A DNA stretch of 64,000 nt from Acidimicrobiales bacterium (lineage in GTDB: Bacteria; Actinomycetota; Acidimicrobiia; Acidimicrobiales; Iamiaceae), in assembly GCA_035547835.1 (NCBI GenBank), contig DASZTW010000019.1, positions 124,001-188,000 of the forward strand. The letters run 5' to 3'. Below are positions 48,061 to 55,346 of the stretch, piece after piece; within the stretch, counting starts at the first letter, position 1, and each line of letters starts with the position of its first letter. The translations under genes and the position numbers were made by a program. The notes under the pieces were generated by a model. That model did no database searches and was not told the DNA's origin. It worked only from the letters and a program-made list of their open reading frames with translations.

Positions 48061-48984
48061 CTACTCGGCCGGTGCCGGCGACAGGCGAGCCCCCTGCGGG
48101 ACGAGCGCGGGCCGCTCGAGCTGGCCCTCGAGCTCGTCCATCGGGTCGAGCTCCCGCCGTGAACCGGCGGCGGCCGGTGAGATCCTCGCCGCGCGAGTCG
48201 AACGGCCGATGTAGGCGTAGGCCAAGCCCACCAGCGCGCCGCCACCGACGATGTTGCCGGGAACCGACCACACCAGGTTGTTCCACAGGCTGTGCCAGTG
48301 GCCGTCGCCGCTGAACGCCGCCAACGACAAGACGGTCATGTTCGCGATCGAGTGTTCGAACCCCGAGGCGATGAACGCCAGCAGCGCCCACCAGAGGCAG
48401 ATCAGCTTGGCCGCGTCGCTGGTGGCGCGGGCGGCCATCCACATCGCCAGGCACACCAAGAAGTTGCACAGCACGGCCCGCAGGAACACCTGACCGCCGG
48501 TGAGGTGGTCTTTGCCGGCCACGATCGACGCGAGCGCGGCGTGGGCGGGCCCGGCCTTGCCGGGGGTGGCGCCGCTGTCGAGGATGCCCGAGCCGTTCAC
48601 CAGCGCGGCGAACGCGACCGAGCCGATGAGGTTGCCGACCAGCGAGGCGACCCACACGCCTACCAGTTGCGCCGTCTTGATCCGCTTGGCGACCATGCCG
48701 ATGACCATCACCATGTTGTTGCCGGTGAACAGCTCGGCGCCGGCGAACACCACCAAGGTGAGGGCCACGCCGAAGACGGAGCCCTGTACGAGCTTGGTGC
48801 TGGCGGAGTGGCCGTTGATGAGCGGCGCGCTCACCATCAACAACAAGATCACCGCCACGCCGATGAAGGCACCCGCGAGAGCCGAGCTCGCGAGGTAGCG
48901 CAACGGACTTCGCAGGAGTTGGTCGGCTTTGTCGGCCGCGAGGTCCTCCTGTGACCGGAGGGCGTCGGGTACGGGGGTCGGCAT
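48061..48984 (-). CDS. formate/nitrite transporter family channel (NirC-like)
   Basis: A 307-residue FNT-family channel. About six membrane helices run from residue 30 to 265: YLASSALAGAFIGVAVILLL, LTLVVFAGAELFTGNNMVMV (with the FNT signature around GAELFTGN), ASLVGNLIGSVAFAALVNGS, LCNFLVCLAMWMAARATSD, SGFEHSIANMTVLSLAAF and WSVPGNIVGGGALVGLAYAY. FNT channels conduct formate, nitrite or hydrosulfide. Being next to nirBD argues for nitrite. A 40-residue polar tail follows. GGAGGAACG precedes the ATG. A GlnR-type box lies upstream at 49118-49155. Confidence 0.88.
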   Translation of the reverse strand: MPTPVPDALRSQEDLAADKADQLLRSPLRYLASSALAGAFIGVAVILLLMVSAPLINGHSASTKLVQGSVFGVALTLVVFAGAELFTGNNMVMVIGMVAKRIKTAQLVGVWVASLVGNLIGSVAFAALVNGSGILDSGATPGKAGPAHAALASIVAGKDHLTGGQVFLRAVLCNFLVCLAMWMAARATSDAAKLICLWWALLAFIASGFEHSIANMTVLSLAAFSGDGHWHSLWNNLVWSVPGNIVGGGALVGLAYAYIGRSTRAARISPAAAGSRRELDPMDELEGQLERPALVPQGARLSPAPAE

Positions 48985-49117
48985 CGTTCCTCCATCAATT
49001 GTCGGCAGTGGGTTTCGCCGACCCATTGGGACAGACGTGCGTTTCGTGGCCGTGTCCCGTCGCGCAAGGGCGGGTGACGGCCGGCCGACATGTGACGTCT
49101 CGCACCGTGCGGCGGTG

Positions 49118-49155
49118 GTAGCGGTGCCGAAACGGCCGGTTAACCGAATGGAAAC
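49118..49155. promoter_or_regulatory. GlnR-type nitrogen control box
   Basis: Four half-sites with exact 6-nt spacing: GTAGC (49118-49122), GAAAC (49129-49133), TTAAC (49140-49144) and GAAAC (49151-49155). The known actinobacterial GlnR pattern is gTnAC-n6-GaAAC, here repeated twice in tandem. It lies between the divergent FNT channel and HemD-like genes; its distance to the FNT start (134 bp) suits activation of that gene. No glnR gene is in the window. Confidence 0.68.
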
Positions 49156-49177
49156 GAACGTCCAGCACACTGGAGCG

Positions 49178-50314
49178 ATGGACCTCCCGTTGCGCGGCGC
49201 GACCGTCGGTGTCACCGCGGACCGTCGCAGCGGCGAGCAGTCCCTGTTGTTGGAGCGTCTCGGCGCCAAGGTCCTCCACGCCCCCACGATCCACACGCTG
49301 CCCCTCGTCGACGAAGGCGACGGTGGTGAGCTGGCCCAGCTCACCGAAGCGCTCGCGCTCGACCCGCCGGTCGCCGTCGTGCTGACCACCGGCATCGGCG
49401 TACGGGGTTGGCTCAGCGCGGTCGACGCATCAGGGACGCGCGACCGGCTCGACCGGGTCTTCGCGGGCGCGGACCTGTGGGTGCGCGGCCCCAAGGCCGC
49501 CGGTGAGCTGACGGTGGCCGGCCATGAGATCTTCGCGAGCGCCGCCTCCGAGCTCGGCGCCGAGCTGGTCGCCCGGGTGGCGGCGCGATACCCGGCAGGC
49601 AGCCGGGTCGCCGTGCAGATCGACGGATCGGCCGATCCGGTGTTGGTCACCGCGCTGGCCGAAGCCGGCTTGGACTCCGTGGCGGTCCGGGTCTATCGGT
49701 GGACCGACCACCCGGACCTCGAGCGAGCCGGGCGGCTCATCGAGACGATCGTCGAGCAGCGCGTCGACGCAGTGACGTTCACGAGCTCACCGGCGTTGAC
49801 GCGCCTGGTCGACCTCGCCGACCGCTCCGGGCTCGGCCCGCCGCTGCGCGCCGCGTTCCACGAGGAAGTCGCCGCGGCGGTGGTCGGACCTGCGTGCGCC
49901 GCGACGGCGCGCCGCGTGGGGATCGTCCCGGCGGTGGAGCCCGATCGGGCGCGCCTCGGCGCCATGGTCGAGGCCGTGGCGCAGCACCTCGCGAGGCCCC
50001 GCTTGCTCGATGTGGCCGGCGAGCGGTTGGCTCTGCGGCGGGCAGCCGTGGTGGTCGGTGACCGGGTGGTGGAGCTGCCGGCACGGGAGCGCAGCGTGCT
50101 CGAAGTGCTGGCAGCCAGGCCAGGTGCGGTGGTGTCACGCCGCACACTCGGTCAACGGGCGTGGCCCGACGGCTGGGCCGATGACCACACCGTCGGCGTG
50201 ACCGTCACCCGGCTGCGCCGCCGCCTCGGGCGGCTCGGGAGTGCCGTGGAGACGTCGCCGCGCCGGGGCTACCGCCTCGTCGCGACGGCGCTCGGCGCCG
50301 ACGTCAGCGCTTGA
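49178..50314 (+). CDS. uroporphyrinogen-III synthase fused to a winged-helix regulator domain
   Basis: A 378-residue two-domain protein. Residues 1-260 form a HemD (uroporphyrinogen-III synthase) fold: LPLRGATVGVTADRRSGEQS, VVLTTGIGVRGWLSAVDAS, GAELVARVAARYPAGSRVAV, FTSSPALTRLVDLADRSGLG. Residues about 285-370 are an OmpR-type winged helix: VVELPARERSVLEVLAARPG, VVSRRTLGQRAWPDG and VGVTVTRLRRRLGRLG. This matches the type of M. tuberculosis Rv0260c, which lies near nirBD. It may link siroheme supply for NirB with regulation. ATG 49178 is preferred over ATG 49148, which lies inside the GlnR-type box. Confidence 0.87.
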   Translation: MDLPLRGATVGVTADRRSGEQSLLLERLGAKVLHAPTIHTLPLVDEGDGGELAQLTEALALDPPVAVVLTTGIGVRGWLSAVDASGTRDRLDRVFAGADLWVRGPKAAGELTVAGHEIFASAASELGAELVARVAARYPAGSRVAVQIDGSADPVLVTALAEAGLDSVAVRVYRWTDHPDLERAGRLIETIVEQRVDAVTFTSSPALTRLVDLADRSGLGPPLRAAFHEEVAAAVVGPACAATARRVGIVPAVEPDRARLGAMVEAVAQHLARPRLLDVAGERLALRRAAVVVGDRVVELPARERSVLEVLAARPGAVVSRRTLGQRAWPDGWADDHTVGVTVTRLRRRLGRLGSAVETSPRRGYRLVATALGADVSA

Positions 50315-50320
50315 CCCCGC

Positions 50321-50719
50321 TCACCGGCCGGTGCCGACGAACACGGCGCCGCCGTGGACTCGCACGTCGTGGCTGGCCACGGGGTCGCCGCCGGTGAGGC
50401 ACTCGCCGGTGGCGAGGTCGTAGCGGTGCTTGTACATCGGTGACGCCACGTACTTGCGCCCGGCGGTGTCGCCCAGCAGGCCGCGGCTGAGCACCGGTGC
50501 GCCTGACGCCGCTGGGTCGACGTTGTCGAGCGCGTAGATGACGCCGTCGTCGGTGAGGAACATGGCGATCTGGCGGCCGGCAACCAGGGCGGCCACGCCC
50601 GAGCCGCGGCGAAGCGCGTCGACACCGCACACCTTGGTCCAGCGGGCGGCGCTCGCCGGCGTGGCCGGGGAACCGCCCAAGTCGGCATCGTCGAGCGCGT
50701 CGGCAGAGAGATCGGTCAT
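50321..50719 (-). CDS. nirD: nitrite reductase [NAD(P)H] small subunit NirD
   Basis: A 132-residue Rieske-fold subunit without Rieske ligands, as usual for NirD: WTKVCGVDALRRGSGVAALV, IAMFLTDDGVIYALDNVDPA, RKYVASPMYKHRYDLATGEC and VASHDVRVHGGAVFVGTG. It partners NirB in assimilatory reduction of nitrite to ammonia. An N-terminal Ala/Asp-rich extension of 25 residues is present. It overlaps nirB by 4 nt and is convergent with the HemD-like gene, only 6 bp away. Confidence 0.93.
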   Translation of the reverse strand: MTDLSADALDDADLGGSPATPASAARWTKVCGVDALRRGSGVAALVAGRQIAMFLTDDGVIYALDNVDPAASGAPVLSRGLLGDTAGRKYVASPMYKHRYDLATGECLTGGDPVASHDVRVHGGAVFVGTGR

Positions 50720-53235
50720 GGGAGTGCTCCTGCGGGTTCGGGTTGGCGCTGGCCGCGGATGCGGACGTACTGGGCGGTCTCGTCCAGCGAGTCGGTGTTG
50801 ACGAACGGCTTGAAGCGTTCGAGGCGGGCCGGGTCAGCCAGTGTCTCGGCCCATTCGCAGGCGTACGAGTCGACGTGGTGGGCCATGGCGGCGTCGAGCT
50901 CGTCGCAGATGCCGAGAGCGTCGTCGATGATCACTCGACGGAGCTGTTCGATCCCGCCGTCGAGTTTCGAGAGCCAGGTGGCGGTTCGTTCGAGCCGGCC
51001 GGCGGTGCGGATGTAGTACATGAGGAAGCGGTCGATCGTGCGGACCAACGTCTCGGTGTCGAGGTCGGTCGCCAGCAAGTCGGCGTGGCGCGGTCGCATG
51101 CCGCCGTTGCCGCCCACGAACAGGTTCCAGCCCCGCTCGGTGGCGATGATCCCGAAGTCCTTGCCTTGGGCCTCGGCGCATTCGCGTGCGCAACCCGACA
51201 CGGCGGACTTGAGCTTGTGCGGCGCCCGCAGTCCCCGGTAGCGGAGCTCGAGCTCGATGGCGAGCTGCGTCGAGTCCTGCACGCCGAACCGGCACCAGGT
51301 CGAGCCGACACACGACTTCACCGTGCGCAGCGCCTTGCCGTACGCGTGGCCCGACTCGAAGCCTGCGTCGACCAGGCGACCCCAGATGGCCGGCAGCTGG
51401 TCGACCCGGGCGCCGAACAAGTCGATCCGCTGGGCGCCGGTGATCTTGGTGTACAAGTCGAACTCACGAGCGATCTCGCCGATCACGATCAGCTGGTCGG
51501 GGGTGATCTCACCGCCGGCCACGCGTGGCACCACGGAGTACGTGCCGTCGCGCTGGATGTTGGCGAGGAATGCGTCGTTGGTGTCCTGCAAGGTGGCCTG
51601 CTCGCCGTCGAGGATGTGGCCGCTGTCGAGTGACGCCAACATCGAGGCGACGGCCGGCTTGCAGATCTCGCAGCCGGTGCCCGTGCCGAACCGCTCGACG
51701 AGCTCCGCGAACGTCCGGATGCCGGTCACGCGCACCACGTCGAACAACTCGGCGCGGGACTGCGCGAAGTGTTCGCAGAGCCGGTCGACCACCACTTCAC
51801 CCCGAGCCCGACGCTCGGCGCCGAGCAGCTCGGTGATGATCGGGACACACGATCCACAGCCGGTTCCAGCGCCCGTGCACGCCTTGATCGCGGGCACGTC
51901 GGTCGCGTCGTTCTCGTGGAACGCCGAGCGAATGTCGCCCGCGGTGACGTTGTGGCACGTGCACACCAGGCTCGAACCGTCGAGGGCGCCGAAATCCGTC
52001 GGCGCCTGGTGGCCCGTCACCAACACCCCCGGATCGTCGGGCGCTGCGAGTGTGCCTCGGGCCATCTGCACCAAGGTGGGGTAGAGGCTGGTGTCGCCGA
52101 CCATCACCGCGCCCACGAGCTCGCCGCCGGCGCCGATCAGCAGCTTGCGGTAGACGCCGGCGATCGGGTCGCGGAAGGAGACTTCCTCGACGTCGTCACG
52201 GGCATCGGCCCGGACTTCGCCGACCGACGCGACGTCGACGCCGAGCAGCTTCAGCTTGGTCGACGGGTCGCCGCCGTCGTACGGCTCGGCGTCGAACCCG
52301 GCCAGCCGGTGGGCCAGCACTTTGGCCATGGCGATGCCGGGGCCGACGAGACCCACGACCTTGCCGGCGTGGCAGGCCACTTCGCCGATCGCGTGCACGC
52401 CCGCTGCCGACGCCGCCATCCAGTCGTCGACCACGACGCCGCCCCGCCCGCCGATGGCCAGACCAGCGTCGCGGGCCAAATCGTCACACGGGCGGATGCC
52501 GGCTGCGCAGATCACGATGTCTGCTGCCAAGGTGTCGCCGTCCGCGAGTCGCAGCCCCGACACCCGGCGACCGTCCGACTCGATGGCCTCCACCATGGCG
52601 GCGGTTCGCACGGCGATGCCGAGGCGGATCACGTCGCGGGCGAGCATGGCCGCGCCGGCCGCGTCGATCTGGGCAGCCATCAGGTGAGGAGCCACTTCGA
52701 CGACTTCGACATCGTCGACGCCGGCGAGTTGCAGCGCGTGCGCCGCCTCGAGGCCGAGCAGGCCGCCGCCGATCACCACGCCGCGCCAGGCTTTGGCTGC
52801 GTCGGCGCGGATCCCCTCGACGTCGGCGAGGGTGCGGTAGACGTGCACCCCGGGGGTGTCGGCACCGGGGATCGGCGGCACGAACGGGCGTGAACCGGTG
52901 GCCAGCACGCACTCGTCGTAAGGGAGGTTGACGCCGCCGCGGGCCCGCAGCACTTTGGCGTCGGCGTCGAGGTGCTCGACCCGCCGCCCGAGCCGCAGCT
53001 CGATGCCGTGGGCGTCGTACCAGTCGGGGCCGGCAAGGGTGAGCGTGGCCTCGGTCTGGTCGTCGAACAAGCCTGACAAGTGGACGCGGTCGTACGCGGG
53101 GCGGCGCTCCTCGCCGAACACCACCACTTCGAAGCGGCGGTGGAGGTCGAGAGCGACGAGCTCTTCGAGGAACCGGTGCCCGACCATCCCATTGCCGACG
53201 ACGACCAGGCGGGGGCGGCGCGGGGGAGAGGCCAT
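50716..53235 (-). CDS. nirB: nitrite reductase [NAD(P)H] large subunit NirB
   Basis: An 839-residue siroheme nitrite reductase. The N-terminal FAD/NAD module has LVVVGNGMVGHRFLEELVAL, GVVIGGGLLGLEAAHALQLA and an NAD/FAD segment AAGVHAIGEVACHAGKVVGL. A BFD-like [2Fe-2S] domain has LVCTCHNVTAGDI and TGCGSCVP; a second short Cys region is TGTGCEICKPAVASML. The siroheme/[4Fe-4S] Cys residues are in CVGSTWCRFGVQDS and SGCARECAEAQGKDFGI. All cofactor motifs are complete. It reduces nitrite to ammonia using NAD(P)H. A weak GlnR-like half-box lies at 53270-53285, upstream of the ATG. Confidence 0.96.
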   Translation of the reverse strand: MASPPRRPRLVVVGNGMVGHRFLEELVALDLHRRFEVVVFGEERRPAYDRVHLSGLFDDQTEATLTLAGPDWYDAHGIELRLGRRVEHLDADAKVLRARGGVNLPYDECVLATGSRPFVPPIPGADTPGVHVYRTLADVEGIRADAAKAWRGVVIGGGLLGLEAAHALQLAGVDDVEVVEVAPHLMAAQIDAAGAAMLARDVIRLGIAVRTAAMVEAIESDGRRVSGLRLADGDTLAADIVICAAGIRPCDDLARDAGLAIGGRGGVVVDDWMAASAAGVHAIGEVACHAGKVVGLVGPGIAMAKVLAHRLAGFDAEPYDGGDPSTKLKLLGVDVASVGEVRADARDDVEEVSFRDPIAGVYRKLLIGAGGELVGAVMVGDTSLYPTLVQMARGTLAAPDDPGVLVTGHQAPTDFGALDGSSLVCTCHNVTAGDIRSAFHENDATDVPAIKACTGAGTGCGSCVPIITELLGAERRARGEVVVDRLCEHFAQSRAELFDVVRVTGIRTFAELVERFGTGTGCEICKPAVASMLASLDSGHILDGEQATLQDTNDAFLANIQRDGTYSVVPRVAGGEITPDQLIVIGEIAREFDLYTKITGAQRIDLFGARVDQLPAIWGRLVDAGFESGHAYGKALRTVKSCVGSTWCRFGVQDSTQLAIELELRYRGLRAPHKLKSAVSGCARECAEAQGKDFGIIATERGWNLFVGGNGGMRPRHADLLATDLDTETLVRTIDRFLMYYIRTAGRLERTATWLSKLDGGIEQLRRVIIDDALGICDELDAAMAHHVDSYACEWAETLADPARLERFKPFVNTDSLDETAQYVRIRGQRQPEPAGALP

Positions 53236-53602
53236 GCGTGCAAGTCAACGCGGCCGCGATTTCGCCCGGGTTGCCGCGATGTGAAGGCCGGTTGTCGACC
53301 ATCGCACACGCTCCTGCGGGCGTTGTGCGGTCGAGGTGGCAGTGGTCACGGCGGCATCGGGGCGAGTGCGCGGACGGCTGGGGCGGGTGGCGCACGGCTG
53401 GAGCCCGCTCACGGCCGGTTGGCGTGAGCGGCGGACCCGACCGGTGACGCACTCGGCTTGCGGGAAGGCGGGGGGCCGGCCGCGGCCGACGGCCGGGTGG
53501 TCCGCGGCCGGGTGGTCCGCGGCCGGGTGGTCTGCGGCCGGGTGGTCTGCGGCCGGGTGGTACCCGACGCTCGTTCGTTGCCGGTGGGTCGTTCGTTGCC
53601 CG
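53236..53602. other. 367-bp gap without a convincing gene
   Basis: This gap between the metallohydrolase gene and nirB contains the nirB promoter region, a 15-bp tandem repeat (53491-53565), and a shorter repeat of the GTTCGTTGCC type near 53573-53600. Open frames here encode only low-complexity His/Pro/Ala repeats and are not supported. Confidence 0.7.
53491..53565 (+). repeat. 15-bp tandem repeat, about five copies
   Basis: GGCCGGGTGGTCCGC twice (53491-53520), GGCCGGGTGGTCTGC twice (53521-53550) and a degenerate fifth unit (53551-53565), head to tail, 38 bp past the end of the metallohydrolase gene. Confidence 0.9.
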
Positions 53603-55037: not shown

Positions 55038-55187
55038 GTGGTTGTCTCCTCTCGGGCGTTGGGCGGCTCGGGGAGCACCAGCCCGGTGGCGGTCCGCCAC
55101 GGGTGATCGGTCACCCGCCGATTATGGACCCCCCCTGCGACAGCCCACGCCCCGACCTCACGGACCGGGCATGGGTCCCACCCCTGC

Positions 55188-55346
55188 GATGGGGTTGGGG
55201 CATCCCCCCCGCTGTTGTGAGCACCTGGCGACCTCCACGGTGGCCAAGTGCTCACAGCACGATGGGGTTGGGGCGTCCCACCCGCTGTTGTGAGCACCTG
55301 GCGACCTCCACGGTGGCCAAGTGCTCACAGCACGATGGGGTTGGGG
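55188..55346 (+). repeat. tandem 73-bp palindromic repeats
   Basis: Two 73-bp units (55188-55260 and 55261-55333) and a partial third (to 55346). Each starts GATGGGGTTGGGG and holds a hairpin with an 18-bp stem, two mismatches and a 5-nt loop: left arm TGTGAGCACCTGGCGACC, right arm GGTGGCCAAGTGCTCACA. Units differ at only a few bases near CATCCCCCCC/CGTCCCACCC. The rest of the 387-bp gap 55038-55424 has no gene. Confidence 0.92.

Follow-up and report, generated by a model that had tools for sequence, protein, structure and literature searches.

A putative GlnR box at a predicted leaderless nnaR promoter points to a GlnR-NnaR-nirBD loop in Acidimicrobiia

The window analysed here is the whole 64-kb stretch of DNA under study, which comes from a member of the class Acidimicrobiia. 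In this window, positions 49118-49155 very probably form the box through which GlnR activates a leaderless nnaR promoter, within a feed-forward loop that runs from GlnR through NnaR to nirBD. Mycobacteria and Streptomyces are known to possess the GlnR-NnaR-nirBD loop (PMC6277429, PMC10704036), and this circuit probably also operates in Acidimicrobiia. While the circuit is of a known kind, the geometry predicted for its nnaR promoter is unusually rigid and widely conserved. The features concerned are listed in Table 1.

Table 1. Features of the proposed circuit. Positions are those of the window, except for glnR.
Feature	Position	Strand	Remarks
FNT family formate/nitrite channel	48061-48984	-	PF01226, 2.4e-65; divergent from nnaR; own Shine-Dalgarno GGAGG
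Possible two-site box GACAC-n6-GAAAC	49041-49056	-	Coding strand of FNT; 57 nt upstream of its start
Outermost half-site GTAGC	49118-49122	+	Degenerate; register of a GTCAC-like site in relatives
Core GlnR-type box GAAAC-n6-TTAAC-n6-GAAAC	49129-49155	+	Half-sites at -49, -38 and -27 relative to the start codon of nnaR
Core half-site GAAAC	49129-49133	+	
Core half-site TTAAC	49140-49144	+	
Core half-site GAAAC	49151-49155	+	
Predicted -10 hexamer CACACT (NANNNT)	49166-49171	+	Offset of 15 nt from the first base of the last half-site
nnaR	49178-50314	+	PF02602 (HEM4, uroporphyrinogen-III synthase) and PF00486 (OmpR-type winged helix); predicted leaderless
nirD, Rieske-type small subunit of nitrite reductase	50321-50719	-	PF13806, 2e-29
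nirB, large subunit of NADH-dependent nitrite reductase	50716-53235	-	Pfam domains
nirB box GACAA-n6-TTCAC-n6-GCAAC-n6-GAAAT	53259-53296	-	Weaker GlnR type; ends 23 nt before the nirB ATG
NnaR-like palindrome CACA-n15-TGTG (CAC-N17-GTG)	53305-53327	-	92 nt before the nirB ATG
glnR ortholog	G000:C2:14802-15488		Basis: structure-sequence match, recognition helix, linkage to glutamine synthetase

The box consists of four 5-mers (GTAGC/GAAAC/TTAAC/GAAAC) with 6-nt gaps and thus in an 11-nt phase, and both the positions and the exact gaps agree with an earlier sequence-only reading of this DNA. That reading had called the box complete. The inner sites GAAAC, TTAAC and GAAAC are indeed good and in the right register, but GTAGC does not conform to GTNAC and carries a G instead of A4, so that the full a-b-a-b unit of four half-sites is not reached. 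The AC dinucleotides at 49132, 49143 and 49154 give the AC-n9-AC phase of a GlnR box. The GlnR box of S. coelicolor, gTnAc-n6-GaAAc-n6-GtnAC-n6-GAAAc (PMC10704036), has the same half-site sequences and phase, whereas the first a-site is without A4 here. In M. smegmatis, an AC to GC change in a half-site abolishes GlnR binding (PMC3662644), and a review calls the A4 irreplaceable (PMC10704036). Four sites are not obligatory, as three are enough at the nas promoter of A. mediterranei and a single a-b pair at gdhA of S. coelicolor (PMC10704036). We consider the three inner half-sites credible and GTAGC probably non-functional. Because aligned relatives carry a (G)TCAC-like site at its register, the most fitting reading of GTAGC is a fourth site that has decayed.

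Half-sites were scored with a fixed scheme (G, A/T, A, A, C, with double weight for the fourth-position A), in which three sites can reach at most 18. The sites at 49129, 49140 and 49151 total 17, the sole such score in the window, and scores of at least 15 were found in the window at this box alone, including an overlapping register of the same box. In 60 Markov versions of the window a score of at least 17 never occurred, and scores of at least 15 occurred 0.4 times on average. When the 3.7-Mb genome was searched for GNNAC-n6-GAAAC-n6-KNNAC-n6-GAAAC with at most one mismatch, the nnaR box was the one match, and the reversed pattern gave 0 matches.

The gene that begins 22 nt after the box, on the same strand, had been described as a HemD-winged-helix gene. 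Its sequence identifies it as nnaR, encoding the nitrate/nitrite regulator: the product scored 301.8 bits against the fused protein model NCBIfam NF005568 (cut-off 273), the HemD (HEM4) domain precedes the OmpR-type winged helix as expected of NnaR, and the gene order in the window, FNT-nnaR-nirDB, provides the expected linkage. The neighbourhood of FNT, HemD-winged-helix and nirBD genes is as described earlier. The earlier reading had, however, picked the wrong main target, and it had not recognized the HemD-winged-helix protein as a nitrogen regulator in its own right. In M. smegmatis nnaR is controlled by GlnR (PMC6277429), and there (msmeg_0432) likewise a HemD-HTH regulator gene lies under an AC-n9-AC GlnR box. 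The present locus differs from it in the class of the host, in the box core (GAAAC-TTAAC-GAAAC) and in the linkage of nnaR to FNT. A second HemD-like open frame on the same contig (G000:C19:88386-89204) shares 39% identity with the HemD part of NnaR; it is without a winged helix and has one TGA within the matched stretch.

Furthermore, we scanned the coding-strand upstream regions of full-length nnaR orthologs from 30 genomes of Acidimicrobiia. Three phased half-sites with a score of at least 15 were found on the coding strand in 14 of the 30, compared to none on the opposite strand (0/30), in coding stretches (0/210) or in shuffles (0/600). An unbiased count of trinucleotide pairs at these promoters ranked AAC-N8-AAC first (19/30 vs 0.9 expected). 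With a score of at least 13, phased half-sites were located at a fixed distance from the start codon in 24 orthologs, namely at -27/-28 and -38/-39 when anchored on the in-frame start codon; the other 6 of the 30 were without the box arrangement. The hexamer NANNNT, which had played no part in choosing these 24 promoters, was present in every one of them (24/24) exactly 15 nt after the beginning of the last half-site, and the start codon followed 5-8 nt past the hexamer, mostly 6 or 7. The column profile of the nnaR promoters reads GTCAC-n6-GTCAC-n6-GAAAC-n6-GAAAC-n11-A-n3-T, so that the consensus of the four half-sites is ordered a-a-b-b in Acidimicrobiia compared to a-b-a-b in S. coelicolor.

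From this geometry we infer a leaderless nnaR transcript, in which the activator box would stand in place of a -35 element and the A of the ATG at 49178 would be +1. An in-frame ATG at 49148 was considered as the nnaR start and rejected, since the last two half-sites flank it and the leaderless geometry favours 49178. In M. smegmatis, transcripts of the NnaR regulon look leaderless, and their starts lie 3' of the GlnR motif (PMC6277429). Outside the class, three nnaR loci (L225, L226 and L229) that are probably mycobacterial show a spacing of half-sites, hexamer and start codon identical to that of Acidimicrobiia, whereas their -10 hexamer is TA(C/G)ACA instead of NANNNT. The leaderless spacing is absent from the Actinomycetia nnaR loci L211-L217, which are probably from Streptomyces. 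Because the spacing of box, hexamer and start codon is conserved, we take nnaR to be the direct target of the box.

The sequence-only reading had predicted nitrogen control of nitrite uptake. A direct role of the nnaR box at the FNT channel gene is unsupported, as the box is on the other strand and some 133 bp away from where FNT begins. The two genes do share a 193-bp intergenic region, and GlnR is able to control divergent genes in M. smegmatis (PMC3662644), so that one bidirectional box could directly control both nnaR and the FNT channel. We regard this as unlikely: the spacing of box, -10 hexamer and start codon suits nnaR alone, FNT lies at the distance given above and has a Shine-Dalgarno sequence, the FNT promoters of relatives are without boxes, and linked nnaR and FNT genes in relatives are mostly convergent. 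In the FNT promoters of 11 relatives no GlnR-type box was found, and most of these promoters have Shine-Dalgarno-like sequences. The two-site match upstream of FNT, expected by chance in 1.6% of cases in its interval, was not conserved there. The CAC/GTG palindrome was likewise missing from the relatives' FNT promoters, except for one (L120). FNT was thus rejected as a direct target of the box, and if the channel is nitrogen-controlled, NnaR or its own weak box would be as likely a cause as the nnaR box.

The presence of glnR in the genome had been set as a check by the earlier reading, and by sequence an ortholog is indeed encoded. The OmpR-type DNA-binding domain has 11 matches in this genome. 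The GlnR candidate found its best solved-structure matches in 8hih (2.3e-44) and 8hig (4.7e-40), which we take to be mycobacterial GlnR, compared to 7e-25 for MtrA. It has an OmpR-type HTH, an atypical receiver and a recognition helix, RTVDVHVRRLRAKLG, that is identical to the 8hih sequence; this helix is identical in 33 of 34 aligned sequences. At the phospho-acceptor column, Asp is present in only 5 of 33 Acidimicrobiia GlnR sequences. GlnR orthologs were found in 131 of 148 relative genomes, nearly all of the same order. In this genome (G000:C2:14802-16550) as well as in all 80 named GlnR loci of relatives, mostly labelled Acidimicrobiia or Acidimicrobiales, glnR lies directly 3' of a glutamine synthetase (GS) gene. 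A second GS gene is often divergent at these loci. Elsewhere in the genome (G000:C17:164530-164895) we noted an OmpR-type winged-helix protein whose N-terminal half is short and divergent and whose C-terminal part is GlnR/NnaR-like.

The same type of box was found on the coding strand upstream of both ammonium-transporter (amt) genes and of one GS gene in the genome, followed in each case by NANNNT at the same offset. At the divergent GS promoter in named Acidimicrobiia, 35 of 72 loci had a box compared to 3 of 720 controls; of these 35 box-bearing promoters, 20 also had the hexamer, which was seen in 5 of the 720 control stretches. These boxes, conserved upstream of nitrogen genes, tie the motif by its placement to nitrogen genes in general and not to nnaR alone. 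Together with the rarity of its score and its conservation, they bear out the assignment of the box to the GlnR type. A whole-genome regulon could not be defined with a rigid pattern, which gave only 5 matches, two of them the nnaR and amt boxes, and 0 for the reversed control; a stricter pattern missed all real boxes, and both were judged too rigid.

In mycobacteria, the motif of MtrA is nearly the same as that of GlnR (PMC6277429), and the genome encodes an MtrA-like regulator (272 bits, under the 300-bit cut-off). The box could thus be bound mainly by another, MtrA-like OmpR-type regulator with the same motif, and the signal would then not be nitrogen. This is improbable, since boxes with the fixed -10 spacing precede nitrogen genes here (nnaR, two amt and GS), boxes precede GS in relatives, and glnR itself is linked to GS.

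The genes nirD and nirB are convergent with nnaR, and the nirBD promoter lies from 53236 onwards, at a distance of 4 kb from the nnaR box. Earlier, nirBD had been noted as lying next to that box; nirBD has a control region of its own (53259-53327) that the earlier reading lacked. The three-site match at 53259-53285 scores 14, the best in the window after the nnaR box, with two other places tying, and a fourth, partial site extends it to 53296. Such a match is expected by chance in 1.5% of cases in 100 bp, and its -10 offset is occupied by TTGACT, not NANNNT. Boxes with a score of at least 14 were present at 8 of 29 nirB orthologs compared to 0.3% of controls. De novo counting at the nirB promoters revealed CAC-N17-GTG in 13 of 29 (2.05 expected); it frequently reads C[T/C]CACA...TGTG[A/C]G and lies some 85-95 nt ahead of the start. 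This palindrome is very similar to ctCAC[a/c]-16N-[t/g]GTGag, the operator of NnaR in M. smegmatis (PMC6277429), with CAC/GTG arms upstream of a GlnR box at nirB, although the CAC-to-GTG spacing is 17 in Acidimicrobiia and 18 as written for M. smegmatis (PMC6277429). The palindrome at nirB is likely the NnaR operator. Orthologs of nirB were found in 36 of 148 relatives, and 34 of these 36 genomes also contain nnaR (Fisher 6e-21, a P value that ignores relatedness). Judged from this arrangement, nirBD would be served not by the nnaR box but by its own weaker box and palindrome. An array of 4.8 copies of the 15-bp unit CGGCCGGGTGGTCCG occupies 53490-53561, about 200 bp further upstream than the nirB box. 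Further away, at 55187-55346, about two 73-bp tandem repeats (97% match) overlap a small open reading frame on the + strand, and the repeat unit holds an inverted GTGAGCAC / GTGCTCAC motif.

The NnaR-like palindrome of Acidimicrobiia is enriched at nirB and not at nnaR, which bears on whether the nnaR box might be an autoregulatory NnaR operator. A CACC-N16-GGTG sequence at 49103-49126 does match the M. smegmatis NnaR core and overlaps the first half-site. We nevertheless give an operator at this place very little credence: such a core is expected by chance in 3% of such intervals, CAC-N18-GTG is not conserved at nnaR promoters (5 compared to 1.9 expected), the spacing in the palindrome that is enriched at nirB is N17, and the conserved nnaR element is a direct repeat. 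The palindrome at the nnaR promoter, a single unconserved match, was dismissed as a likely coincidence. A chance match without function is next to impossible for the nnaR box; short degenerate half-sites are common singly, but the rarity of the box in window and genome and its position-specific conservation in 24 of 30 nnaR orthologs already contradict this.

In the GlnR circuit that we favour, GlnR would bind head-to-tail at -49, -38 and -27, and perhaps weakly at -60, upon nitrogen limitation. Bound GlnR would take the place of the -35 element and bring RNA polymerase to CACACT, and nnaR transcription would begin at the A of the nnaR ATG. NnaR and GlnR, acting jointly at nirB through the palindrome and the weaker GlnR box in tandem, would then turn on nitrite reduction to ammonium. 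The sequence, the genes, the presence of glnR, the conservation, the fixed spacing and the co-occurrence of nnaR and nirB are direct observations. From them we infer that GlnR binds and activates, where transcription starts, that nitrogen elicits a response and that the palindrome belongs to NnaR. Several points speak against the GlnR circuit, namely the near-identical MtrA motif, the mostly missing Asp, the orthologs that deviate from the arrangement (6/30), the weak nirB box and the N17 instead of N18 spacing.

We further propose, tentatively and with somewhat more doubt than confidence, that the GlnR-NnaR-nirB loop and its exact leaderless geometry (-49/-38/-27, -10 at -12, start at +1) have been retained since Acidimicrobiia diverged from the other actinobacteria, and that the loop is run in Acidimicrobiia by a mostly Asp-less GlnR. 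If this is true, GlnR activation in Acidimicrobiia cannot depend on the phospho-acceptor Asp.

In an open library of papers, the one publication that mentions GlnR together with Acidimicrobiia was a false match to GlnRS. Within that library, the present data therefore appear to provide the first evidence from sequence that Acidimicrobiia have a GlnR regulon, and the loop appears to be undescribed in this poorly studied class, whose members are mostly uncultured and live in soil, freshwater and the sea. The spacing rule (box, 15 nt, NANNNT, 6 nt, start codon) may serve as a predictor of nitrogen-controlled genes in Acidimicrobiia, and the missing phospho-acceptor Asp would make nitrogen sensing by GlnR accessible to comparison.
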